NCBI RefSeq assembly: GCF_011320075.1
Contig: NZ_JAANPA010000019.1
Span: 1 to 50,242, forward strand
Direction of reading: 5' to 3'
DNA: 50,242 nt
Source: Sphingosinicella sp. YJ22
GTDB lineage: Bacteria; Pseudomonadota; Alphaproteobacteria; Sphingomonadales; Sphingomonadaceae
Shown here: positions 24,634-27,815 of the stretch, piece after piece
How the letters are laid out: every line of letters begins with the position of its first letter
How positions within the stretch are numbered: the first letter of the stretch is position 1
The notes under the pieces: model-generated
The model's input: only the letters and a program-made list of their open reading frames with translations
Told to the model about the DNA's origin: nothing
Database searches by the model: none
Program-made: the position numbers and the translations under genes

Positions 24634-24687
24634 CAACCTTGATTGTTGCTGGTTTGTTCCATCTGGGCTAGTGTTCGGCCTCCACTT

Positions 24688-24722
24688 AGCCCCTCCCCTT
24701 CAGGGGAGGGGTTGGGGTGGGG
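24688..24722. repeat. Left terminal inverted repeat of the DUF559 element
   Basis: 35 bp, a perfect inverted copy of 25083-25117. The outer part is a hairpin (CCCCTCCCC, TTCA loop, GGGGAGGGG) and the inner part a GTTGGGGTGGGG tail pointing toward the nuclease gene. Outside it, CCACTT matches the other end's CCACT with one extra base. The last Gs form the ribosome-binding site of the nuclease gene. Confidence 0.9.
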
Positions 24723-24732
24723 GAGTCCAGAA

Positions 24733-25119
24733 GTGACCGAAGCCGAACTCCTCGACCGCGCCCGCCACATGCGCAACAATCCCACAGAGTTCGAGAAGCG
24801 GCTGTGGCGACATCTGTCCGGCAATCAGATGGGCCACAAGTTCCGCCGCCAGCACGTGATCTTTCCGTACATCGTCGACTTGTTCTGCCCAGCAAAGGGC
24901 TTGGCGGTGGAGGTGGACGGCGAGACGCATGCGCACGAGCGAGATAGACGGCGGGATGCGCGACTGGCCGAACTGGGATTCAGAACGATCCGGGTTACCA
25001 ACGACGACGTGCGAGACAATATGGATGGAGTGCTCTTGGCGATCCTCCGTGTCGTCCGCCACATGCCGGATCGCTGGCCAGGCCCCACCCCAACCCCTCC
25101 CCTGAAGGGGAGGGGCTAG
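24733..25119 (+). CDS. DUF559 endonuclease-fold protein inside inverted repeats
   Basis: A 128-residue DUF559 protein, a single-domain relative of very-short-patch repair (Vsr) and restriction endonucleases. N-terminal helices (ARHMRNNPTEFEKRLW) lead to a core with D49 in YIVDLF, E60-V-D62 and H66 (GETHAH), followed by GFRTIRVTNDDV. The start is GTG 24733, 8 nt from GGGGGAG at the end of the left repeat. The frame runs into the right repeat, which encodes the tail PTPTPPLKGRG and the TAG stop. The gene therefore fills the whole interval between the two repeats. Nuclease activity is inferred from the fold family only. Confidence 0.9.
   Translation: MTEAELLDRARHMRNNPTEFEKRLWRHLSGNQMGHKFRRQHVIFPYIVDLFCPAKGLAVEVDGETHAHERDRRRDARLAELGFRTIRVTNDDVRDNMDGVLLAILRVVRHMPDRWPGPTPTPPLKGRG
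25083..25117. repeat. Right terminal inverted repeat of the DUF559 element
   Basis: A perfect inverted copy of 24688-24722. It encodes the last residues of the DUF559 protein. Its GGGGAGG also forms the Shine-Dalgarno of the helicase gene, whose GTG (25119-25121) begins two bases beyond. Confidence 0.9.
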
Positions 25120-27815
25120 TGGGCGACCTGCCCTATCCCGCATTATACGCCACGCATGGCGGGATCTGGATCGCGCGCGCGGACGGCGTGACCGAGGCGG
25201 TCGGGCGTGGCGAGGCGATCTCGCGCGCGGCCGACACGCCGATGATCCTCATGAACGCGCCGCTGGTGGGGAGCAGGCTCGGCTATCCCGACCTGTCCGG
25301 GCTCGACCTGCTCGAACTGTTCGCGTTCGTCTTCCCCGCGCGCTTCGCGGTGCCGACGCCGCATGGCCTGGCGCAGGCGCTCGAACTAGAGCCGCCGGCG
25401 TCCGATGCGGAGGCGGCCGACTTCCTGCGAAGGGCCGCGGCGAAACTCCTTGCCGTGCTCGACGGCGACTGGCCGGAGCGTGAAGGCGCGTGGACCAGCG
25501 CCCAGGCGCTCGGCCGGCTGCGCTGGCCCTGGGCGGCGGCGGTGCTGCAGCGGGTGCGCAGGCCCGAGCGGGACGAGCGTTGGCTGTTCTCGCGCCTGCC
25601 CGAATGGAGCGAGGCCGCCGGGCGCGGGCCGCCGCGCAACGTGCGCATCGATCCGGCCGAGGTCTCCGAGCGGTTGACCGAACTGACTGGCACGGGCGCC
25701 GAGCCGCGCCCGGGGCAGCGGCTCTATGCCGAGACCGCGGCGGCGGCGTTCGATCCGCGCCGGACCGCGGGGGAACCGCACATGTTGCTCGCCGAGGCCG
25801 GCACCGGAATCGGCAAGACGCTCGCCTATCTCGCCCCCGCCTCGTTGTGGGCCGAGCGCGCCGATGGCGCGGTGTGGGTGTCGACCTATACCAAGGCGCT
25901 CCAGCGCCAGCTCACCCGCGAGGGCGAGCGGCTGTTCCCCGACCCCGCCGAGCGGCGCGCCAAGATGGTCGTTCGCAAGGGCCGCGAGAATTATCTCTGC
26001 CTGCTCAATCTCGAGGACGCGCTTCAGGGCGGCTTCTCGGGCCGAGCCGCGATCCTCGCCCAGCTCGTTGCGCGCTGGGCGGCATACAGCCGCGACGGCG
26101 ACATGGTCGGCGGCGACCTGCCCGGCTGGCTGCCCAGCCTGTTCCGCCGCGCCGGCGCGACTGCGCTGACCGACCGCCGCGGCGAATGCGTCTATGCCGG
26201 CTGCGCGCATTACCGGAAATGCTTCATCGAGCGGTCGACGCGGGCGAGCCAGGATGCCGACATCGTCGTCGCCAACCATGCGCTGGTGATGGTCAACGCC
26301 GCGCGCGGCCGGGAGACCGGTGCTGCGCCCACGCGCCTCGTCTTCGATGAGGGCCATCACCTGTTCGATGCCGCCGATTCGACCTTCGGCGCGGCGTTGT
26401 CCGGACAGGAAGCGATCGAGCTCAGGCGCTGGATCCTGGGGCCGGAGGGCCGCTCGCGCGGGCGTCGGCGCGGCCTCCAGGCGCGGCTGATGGACGTGAT
26501 CAGCTATGACGAAGCCGGCGCCGATGCGGTCGCGGCGGCGGTCGCTGCGGCGCAGGAGCTGCCCGGCGACGGCTGGCTCCAGCGGATCGGCGAAGGCGCG
26601 CCGTGGGGACCGGTCGAGGCCCTTCTGCTTGCCGTTCGCCACAGCGTCTATGCACGGGCGACCGCCCAGGAATCGGGCTTCGGCATCGAGACCGAGCTCG
26701 CCGAGCCCGACGGCGCCTTCGTCGCCGCGGCCGGCGAGGCGGTGGCGGTGCTGGAGCGGCTGATGCGCGCGCTGGTCGCGCTCGGCAAGCGGCTGGAGGC
26801 GGTGCTGGAGGATGCGCCCGACTGGCTCGATGGACCGGCTCGGGCGCGGGTCGAGGGCGCATTGTCGGGCCTCGCCTGGCGCACCCAGACGATCGCGTCC
26901 TGGATCGCGCTTGCCGGACGTGTCGGCGGCCCGGCGGATCCCGACTTCGTCGATTGGCTCGCGGTCGACCGGGTCGAGGGCCGTGAGTTCGACGTCGGCC
27001 TCCACCGCCGCTGGCTCGATCCGACCCGCCCGCTCGCCGAGGCGGTGCTGAAGCCGGCGCATGGCGTCGTCGTCACCTCGGCGACGCTGCGCGGCGGTGA
27101 GAGCTGGGACGCAGCCGAGGCGCGCACCGGCGCAAGCCATCTCGGCCGTGCCGTCCACTTCGCCGCGGACAGCCCGTTCGACTATGCCGCCAACAGCGAG
27201 GTGCTGATCGTCACCGACTTGAAGCGCGGCGATTTGCCCGCCTTGTCAGGTGCCTACGCCCGGCTGATCGAGGCTGCCGGCGGCGGCACGCTCGGCCTGT
27301 TCACCGCGATCAACCGCCTGCGCGCGGTCCACGCCCGAATCGCCGACCGCCTCGCCCGCGCCGGACTGCCGCTCTACGCCCAGCATGTCGACCCGATCGA
27401 CACCGGCACGCTGGTGGACATCTTTCGCGACGACCCGACCGCGAGCCTGCTCGGCACCGACGCGCTTCGCGACGGAGTCGACGTGCCCGGCCATTCGCTT
27501 CGGCTGGTGGTGATGGAGGGCATTCCCTGGCCCCGTCCGACCGTGCTCCATGCCGCGCGCCGAGCGGTCGGCGGCGGCAGCGCGTATGACGACCGCGTCG
27601 TGCGCGCACGGCTCGCCCAGGCGTTCGGCCGGCTGATCCGCCGCGGCGGCGATCGCGGCCTGTTCGTCCTGCTCTCCTCGGCGGCGCCGACGCGGCTGAT
27701 GACCGCCTTCCCACCTGGCGTCGCGATCCGGCGGGTGCCGCTCGCCGAAGCGGTCGAGCGTGTGCAGACGTGGCTTCCAACCGAGCCGGCGTTGCGGCAA
27801 GAGGAGCCCGTCTAG
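25119..27815 (+). CDS. DinG/Rad3-type ATP-dependent DNA helicase
   Basis: An 898-residue superfamily 2 Fe-S helicase. A 190-residue N-terminal extension precedes the core. Walker A is EAGTGIGKT (226-234). The Fe-S cysteines are the one in NYLC plus three in CVYAGCAHYRKC; the DEAH-type box is DEGH (410-413). Later motifs include SLLGTDALRDGVDVPG and RLAQAFGRLIRRGG. It should unwind 5'-3', acting on R-loops or stalled forks. The GTG start overlaps the DUF559 stop by one base (TAGTG), with its ribosome-binding site inside the repeat, so translation is coupled to the nuclease. No SOS box is visible upstream. Confidence 0.93.
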   Translation: MGDLPYPALYATHGGIWIARADGVTEAVGRGEAISRAADTPMILMNAPLVGSRLGYPDLSGLDLLELFAFVFPARFAVPTPHGLAQALELEPPASDAEAADFLRRAAAKLLAVLDGDWPEREGAWTSAQALGRLRWPWAAAVLQRVRRPERDERWLFSRLPEWSEAAGRGPPRNVRIDPAEVSERLTELTGTGAEPRPGQRLYAETAAAAFDPRRTAGEPHMLLAEAGTGIGKTLAYLAPASLWAERADGAVWVSTYTKALQRQLTREGERLFPDPAERRAKMVVRKGRENYLCLLNLEDALQGGFSGRAAILAQLVARWAAYSRDGDMVGGDLPGWLPSLFRRAGATALTDRRGECVYAGCAHYRKCFIERSTRASQDADIVVANHALVMVNAARGRETGAAPTRLVFDEGHHLFDAADSTFGAALSGQEAIELRRWILGPEGRSRGRRRGLQARLMDVISYDEAGADAVAAAVAAAQELPGDGWLQRIGEGAPWGPVEALLLAVRHSVYARATAQESGFGIETELAEPDGAFVAAAGEAVAVLERLMRALVALGKRLEAVLEDAPDWLDGPARARVEGALSGLAWRTQTIASWIALAGRVGGPADPDFVDWLAVDRVEGREFDVGLHRRWLDPTRPLAEAVLKPAHGVVVTSATLRGGESWDAAEARTGASHLGRAVHFAADSPFDYAANSEVLIVTDLKRGDLPALSGAYARLIEAAGGGTLGLFTAINRLRAVHARIADRLARAGLPLYAQHVDPIDTGTLVDIFRDDPTASLLGTDALRDGVDVPGHSLRLVVMEGIPWPRPTVLHAARRAVGGGSAYDDRVVRARLAQAFGRLIRRGGDRGLFVLLSSAAPTRLMTAFPPGVAIRRVPLAEAVERVQTWLPTEPALRQEEPV

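Follow-up and report, generated by a model that had tools for sequence, protein, structure and literature searches.

A DUF559 nuclease gene between inverted triplex-motif repeats, and the association of the two across Bacteria

Architecture of the DUF559 unit

The window analysed here is a stretch of 50,242 nucleotides from the draft genome of Sphingosinicella sp. YJ22 (contig NZ_JAANPA010000019.1, positions 1 to 50,242). It contains a unit of about 430 bp in which one gene is enclosed by two inverted copies of a repeat. The gene (24733..25119, plus strand) starts with GTG, encodes a Vsr-fold nuclease of 128 residues from the DUF559 family (PF04480; E 1.4e-27, 96.1 bits against a cut-off of 20.6) and fills nearly all of the unit. 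No other Pfam-recognised gene lies inside the repeats, in agreement with a preliminary description of this DNA that had placed the DUF559 gene alone between them, with no transposase.

The left repeat (24687..24722, plus strand) and the right repeat (25083..25118, minus strand) are 36 nt long, 100% complementary and separated by 360 nt. They are perfect inverted copies, as previously described, although one nucleotide longer than the 35 bp first given. Each arm reads, in order, CCCCTCCCC-TTCA-GGGGAGGGG-TT-GGGGTGGGG. On the left side, the pyrimidine arm CCCCTCCCC (24690-24698), the loop TTCA (24699-24702) and the purine arm GGGGAGGGG (24703-24711) are followed by the spacer TT and by a third arm, GGGGTGGGG (24714-24722), directed inward. 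The right copy has the opposite orientation, with its third arm also pointing inward, and encodes the C-terminal end of the DUF559 protein. The 22-nt hairpin and the inward direction of its tail had been recognised correctly; what had been taken for a G-rich tail is a third arm that mirrors the purine arm across the spacer. The feet of the two hairpins are TTAG on the left and CTAG on the right. DNA folding of the window arms gave a z of about -1.8, short of a decisive value, in a model that leaves the third arm outside.

As read from the sequence, the purine-rich stretch 5' of the GTG is the left third arm, which may serve as the ribosome-binding site of the DUF559 gene. The stop codon TAG (25117-25119) lies at the end of the right repeat, as had been noted, and overlaps the GTG start (from 25119) of a gene for a DinG-like helicase within TAGTG (25117..25121, plus strand). 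Upstream of the unit, a GTTG-N7-GTTC box (24645..24659, plus strand), identified by eye, resembles a LexA/SOS box, for which PMC12907096 quotes the consensus GTTC-N7-GTTC; similar boxes are found 5' of dinG in relatives. Because of this resemblance, the unit appears to lie between the promoter region of dinG and its start codon, and the box would place DUF559 and dinG in one operon or promoter region controlled by DNA damage. A direct 9-bp match at the two ends of the unit, GGGCTAGTG at 24665-24673 and 25113-25121, overlaps the right arm; it may be a target duplication but is indistinguishable from chance, and no clear target duplication is seen. Elsewhere in the window, near the contig end (50-100, minus strand), lies a lone triplex motif, CCTCCCC in class, whose spacer holds a hairpin.

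The repeats have the design of an intrastrand triplex motif

Judged by its letters, the window repeat has the design of an intrastrand triplex motif (TM): a pyrimidine arm, a loop, a purine arm, a spacer and a mirror third arm. Both window copies conform to this design. The class (TM-ECO, earlier called 'PIT' motifs) was described by Holder et al. 2015 (PMC4666352), who demonstrated triplex formation in vitro for the TM-ECO sequence. That paper lists 23 copies for E. coli MG1655 and records the motif in over 260 genomes. It links the sites to local instability of the E. coli genome and reports no mobility gene and no transposases close to them. Earlier work cited there reports these motifs as lacking promoter or terminator activity, and the main text of the paper mentions neither 'duf' nor 'endonuclease'.

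The third arm was compared with its own hairpin over 377 DUF559 flanks that carry one. Scored against the mirrored arm of that hairpin, its agreement is 0.883, compared with 0.800 (s.d. 0.0035) for shuffled partners. Among asymmetric arms, the mirror orientation beats the direct one by 185 to 29 with 100 ties, and by 109 to 18 with 59 ties when one flank per locus is taken. The match to the own arm and the excess of the mirror orientation indicate that the third arm has been retained as a feature of the repeat, rather than being a G-run that arose by chance. CGTC-type REPs, which reportedly carry ATCCCGG-type letters, were ruled out as the identity of the window repeat, since their stems and tails differ.

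Family and fold of the DUF559 protein

The AlphaFold model of the window protein has a mean pLDDT of 87.6. Its nearest solved structures are the endonuclease-like NGO0050 (3hrl) and the homing endonuclease I-Bth0305I (3r3p), with weaker similarity to Vsr (1vsr, 1cw0). At the profile level, matches to PF18741 and to Vsr (the latter weak) fall below cut-off, and PADLOC and NCBIfam return weak or generic matches. Four residues, D49, E60, D62 and H66, are conserved in 223-224 of 224 aligned loci in a D...ExD...H pattern, which argues for an active site under constraint. Relatives are few among phage records (3 of 50,697 at E 1e-5 with the query used). A member of the family has been studied in Caulobacter, where the DUF559 protein VsrA is SOS-induced and is required for the SOS response in cells without a cytosine methylase (PMC12907096).

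DUF559 genes are paired with triplex motifs across Bacteria

TMs were scored with a single orientation-aware definition, drawn up after the loci had been seen and applied identically to the controls. Three sets of loci were used: a genus/order set of 115 DUF559 loci, from which 15 matches were omitted (8 short or partial, 5 near contig ends or partial, 2 others); a Pseudomonadota set with the single best locus per genome, taken from 30 of the 98 genomes that have a match; and a cross-phylum set consisting of the best 80 of at least 565 confirmed loci. Contig ends left 4 of 115 loci unscored in the first set and 1 of 79 in the third, where one further locus (L175) was dropped for a stretch of N.

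In total, 166 of 219 scored DUF559 loci have TMs on both flanks and 211 on at least one. Both flanks carry the motif at 90 of 111 genus/order loci, 14 of 30 Pseudomonadota loci and 62 of 78 cross-phylum loci (these from the best 80 of at least 565), and at least one flank does so at 109, 29 and 73 of the same loci, respectively. The preliminary description was to count as refuted if most DUF559 genes lacked flanking palindromes, which these counts contradict, or if the palindrome were equally common beside unrelated genes, which the controls contradict. Random blocks from the same loci have TMs on both flanks in 2 of 1028 cases and on any flank in 40, and control ORFs in 2 and 23 of 277. One of the two bracketed control ORFs (L166) is itself a second DUF559 gene (E 5.7e-40), and the other may not be a gene. 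A simpler test, based on inverted matches alone, gives the same picture: with a match of at least 16, 93 of 111 scored genus/order loci are positive against 2 of 1973 same-size random blocks (4 of 115 unscored at contig ends), with 13 of 30 against 3 of 362 in the Pseudomonadota sample and 60 of 77 against 0 of 2048 in the cross-phylum set (L175 with its run of N removed; 2 of 80 unscored at contig ends). The window genome has six DUF559 genes and each of them is bracketed: exact inverted seeds of 14 nt show this for five, and inspection for the sixth (L005).

DUF559 genes and TMs are therefore associated by direct count, and the nuclease may act on the repeats. The suggestion that DUF559 is the enzyme of a REP-like system of sphingomonads gains support from the bracketing but loses its restriction to that group: a sphingomonad-only system is ruled out by the cross-phylum set, whose doubly flanked loci include, as titled in their records, Nitrospira, Rokubacteria, Binatia, Dadabacteria, Gastranaerophilales, SAR202, Dehalococcoidia and Daviesbacteria. 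Plasmid records of three Deinococcus species also have TMs on either side of a DUF559 gene. Three of four cyanobacterial records carry motifs with 5-6-letter arms on both sides when the required arm length is relaxed, a setting that lacks a separate control; by this definition the Synechocystis record has a TM on one side.

The pairing also holds in the reverse direction. Among the motif matches listed, five pairs of TMs lie on opposite strands of one contig at a spacing of 300-800 bp (G111, G225, G309, G314 and G321), and a profile search places a DUF559 gene within every one of them. A same-strand pair (L336, on G131:C4) surrounds a DUF559 gene that is broken into two frames and apparently decaying. 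The third arms do not face inward everywhere: certain lineages have the two of them directed out from the gene (L333 in G225, L335 in G309, L338, L340 and L343).

In E. coli MG1655, the DUF559 gene is ycjD. The published TM copy no. 9 lies about 166 bp past its stop codon and a decayed TM-like hairpin spans its 3' end; TMs were found on the 3' side only, none being detected 5' of the gene in this strain. Of 5426 E. coli genomes, 3362 contain at least 80% of the ycjD region. SMS-3-5, the one strain without ycjD that was compared, has other genes at this position and no clean empty site.

Association of motif copy number and arm types with the DUF559 genes

At least three copies of the strict motif were found in 36 of 74 Pseudomonadota genomes with a strong DUF559 match and in 9 of 175 without (249 genomes; Fisher p 8e-15, a value which, like the other p-values here, is too small because related genomes are not independent). 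The nine motif-rich genomes without a strong match reach 97 copies, and one of them (G286) has a weak DUF559 match. Among 41 relatives, the number of DUF559 genes correlates with the palindrome count after subtraction of a reversed-pattern control (Spearman 0.83; 0.64 within the genus), and the correlation is not significant for the 16 relatives outside the window genus or family (p 0.19). Motifs were also counted in 41 of the genomes behind the 80 best cross-phylum loci, selected mostly from outside sphingomonads: the strict motif is present in 34 of them, with up to 352 copies, and for this motif the reversed-pattern control is not independent, because the AGA third arm nearly mirrors the purine arm and the control equals the count in several genomes. 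The 352 copies belong to a Serratia genome (G319), whose retrieved DUF559 gene (L232) is accompanied by a TM on just one side. Motif copies far exceed DUF559 genes in many genomes.

Several contigs of the window's draft genome start or end no more than a few hundred bases from palindromes of this kind (for example C45:4-25, C62:70-91, C67:47-68 and C71:19-40), so that copies may be under-assembled and the counts low.

Repeat type tracks the protein. Mapped on the DUF559 tree, the arm class of 210 labelled loci requires 44 changes, against 93-116 in 200 shuffles. The left and right arms of a locus agree in class in 142 of 167 cases, with at most 69 after shuffling. The clade of the window protein comprises eight loci (SH-aLRT 98), and all seven members that can be classed carry the CCCCTCCCC-type arm, the eighth being a contig-end locus with none. 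Copies of the window palindrome beyond the unit itself are more numerous in genomes that have this clade, with p 0.003 for genomes at least 95% complete and p 0.022 for all 26; one genome without the clade (G024) has 34 copies.

Occupied and empty sites

The preliminary description had proposed yebC-dinG as the junction at which relatives should be compared. This choice did not hold up: in the window genome yebC is followed by dinG, whereas yebC is present at none of 29 other dinG loci (flanks of up to 1500 bp, some shorter), which points to a rearrangement near the unit. In relatives, the next gene after yebC is ruvC at 22 of 24 loci (by eye), and a tblastn search of the window with a relative's ruvC gave a best E of 0.34. 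The junctions compared were the upstream regions of dinG at 14 loci and the downstream regions of yebC.

The states of the yebC-ruvC junction were read mostly by eye and include empty sites. The junction is bare in ten relatives (G004, G005, G008, G012, G013, G019, G020, G022, G023 and G024), where no more than about 30 nt separate the two genes. It holds a TM pair without a gene in three (G007, G011 and G018), a single palindrome in one (G014) and a full unit in three (G001, G015 and G289); in five relatives the gap is longer and free of such palindromes. The serC-serA gap contains a full unit in G000, G007 and G015 and a TM pair in G011, with nothing or other repeats elsewhere. Other inverted repeats, GTCATCCCGG-like by eye, are seen in this gap at L303, L305, L308, L314 and L315, and the CGTC-REP-like repeats found there by eye in several genomes are separate elements.

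DUF559 genes of one site lie near each other on the tree, which suggests that the gene is mostly inherited in place. Changes of site occur nonetheless: G006, G010, G011 and G016 carry members of the window clade at another site, unrelated to the first. On the Deinococcus plasmids, the junction of the hpa gene cluster that DUF559 occupies differs among all three species. The DUF559 proteins of NW-56 and D. proteolyticus are 87.5% identical and the flanking oxidoreductases 80%. At the oxidoreductase/hpaE junction, which holds the unit in NW-56, the two genes of D. proteolyticus overlap directly.

A possible repeat-spreading system and its alternatives

The recurrence of the same pairing in many bacterial groups suggests that the nuclease probably spreads or maintains the repeats. 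We favour, with a probability of roughly 60%, a selfish or domesticated system of the RAYT/REPIN kind in which the enzyme would be the DUF559 Vsr-fold nuclease acting on TMs. The observations behind this reading are the bracketing, the repeat types that track the tree, the association at genome level, the gene-less pairs, the occupied and empty sites, the changes of site and the conserved residues. The comparison with RAYTs that had been drawn from the single locus is borne out in layout: inverted repeats enclose the enzyme gene, gene-less inverted pairs are dispersed, repeat types follow the tree and descent at a site is mostly vertical. Weighing against this reading are the nine genomes that have at least three motif copies and no strong DUF559 match, the one-sided arrangements of Serratia G319 and ycjD, the weaker bracketing in the Pseudomonadota sample, the modest result of the family-specific copy test with its exception, the non-significant count correlation among the 16 more distant relatives, the units with both tails outward and the lack of a clear target duplication. 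A further point against it is that a PD-(D/E)XK nuclease by itself is not known to carry out the strand joining of a transposase.

As we picture it, a full unit is a single DUF559 gene flanked by two inverted TMs, and the dispersed units are gene-less TM pairs about 60-170 bp apart. When a TM becomes single-stranded, on the lagging strand, during repair or in a transcription bubble, it would fold into a hairpin or triplex that a DUF559 protein of the matching type could recognise, and the protein would then nick or cut at or near the fold. Repair-coupled copying may insert or restore TM pairs at other places and leave no obvious target duplication, while the DUF559 gene itself would mostly stay, be inherited vertically and move occasionally. 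We infer the binding, cutting and copying, as well as the order of these steps, from the arrangement of genes and repeats. We would give about even odds to the broader proposal that the DUF559 family supplies the dedicated enzymes that intrastrand-triplex repeats across Bacteria have seemed to lack, the two forming a class of minimal mobile or domesticated element in which the nuclease reads a triple-helical fold and drives the copying of TM pairs; ycjD and the 23 E. coli copies would then be a remnant.

The main rival is a repairing or resolving role without spreading. DUF559 would be a host or domesticated repair nuclease that recognises TM structures at stalled forks, clears or repairs them and is maintained together with them, and the TMs would spread otherwise, by replication slippage, gene conversion or other transposases. 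The Vsr-like fold and the persistence of DUF559 genes at fixed sites agree with such a role, as do the SOS induction of VsrA and the need for it in that response without a cytosine methylase (PMC12907096) and the TM-linked instability in E. coli (PMC4666352). By itself, however, this role leaves unexplained why the gene is bracketed by inverted TMs whose arms share a class and why the gene-less pairs are laid out likewise, and we consider it rather unlikely. The same instability (PMC4666352), along with the rearrangement near the unit suggested by the lack of yebC at the 29 other dinG loci, could instead mean that TMs are recombination hot spots that capture small genes, of which the DUF559 genes are survivors. 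Against such a capture speak the two bracketed control ORFs, one a DUF559 gene and the other doubtful, the DUF559 genes in all five wide TM pairs among the motif matches listed, and the arm types that follow the DUF559 tree; we hold it to be very unlikely.

The position of the window third arm just before the GTG and the stop codon within the right arm would fit TMs that work in cis, as terminator-like or attenuator-like elements that shield neighbours from the expression of a harmful nuclease or limit that expression, their spread being incidental. This is improbable in our view, given that TM arms are found in either orientation, that their copies far outnumber DUF559 genes in many genomes, and that the earlier work cited in PMC4666352 reports no promoter or terminator activity for the motifs. 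Inverted ends and gene-less derivatives are also what one would see if the unit were an insertion sequence or MITE of the usual kind, moved by a known transposase and carrying DUF559 as a passenger, but the unit has no clear target duplication, PMC4666352 describes no transposases near TMs, and about 430 bp nearly filled by DUF559 leave no room for a transposase, making this origin highly improbable.

In several phyla, triplex repeats and the widespread but little-understood DUF559 family predict each other. If DUF559 acts on the repeat, it would be an example of a PD-(D/E)XK nuclease sustaining a repeat family, and would provide a cellular partner for triplex DNA and a partial account of the instability of TM sites.

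Comparison with known systems

Searching titles and the beginnings of abstracts, with most subscription journals and preprints outside the search, we found no paper that joins DUF559 or Vsr with palindromic or triplex repeats; a prior report of the link may exist. The TMs of Holder et al. (PMC4666352) share with the window repeat the DNA design, the inverted pairs and the occurrence in many bacteria, and many genomes carry the identical letters CCCTCTCCC-loop-GGGAGAGGG-NNN-GGGTGAGGG. The window genus differs in its arms, whose variants include CCCCTCCCC and CCTCCCC, and some of its motifs have an additional hairpin in the spacer. CGTC REPs, largely alphaproteobacterial and reported without a dedicated transposase, differ in their stems of 8-9 bp, the AT at the stem start and the CCA tail, with no mirror third arm in the description given by PMC3733652.

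On the protein side, the Vsr-like nucleases YcjD and VsrA belong to the same family and have the same fold as the window protein, but VsrA is discussed in PMC12907096 as mismatch-repair-like, in passages that mention no repeat association. I-Bth0305I (3r3p) is the nearest functionally named fold match; it is named in the PDB as a mobile intron protein, whereas the window gene lies between repeats. The closest parallel in organisation is RAYT/REPIN, where an enzyme gene is likewise flanked by inverted palindromes and accompanied by dispersed, non-autonomous inverted doublets, as the DUF559 units are by gene-less TM pairs. Repeat groups are enzyme-specific in that system as well, and the enzyme genes are as a rule not self-mobilising (Bertels and Rainey 2011, PMC3116915). 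At the hairpin foot, for which that system has a GTAG tag, the window reads TTAG on the left and CTAG on the right. The unit is nevertheless not a RAYT, because the enzyme is unrelated: RAYT is a tyrosine (Y1/HUH) transposase and DUF559 a nuclease of the PD-(D/E)XK type. The repeats differ as well, those of the DUF559 units having a mirror third arm.
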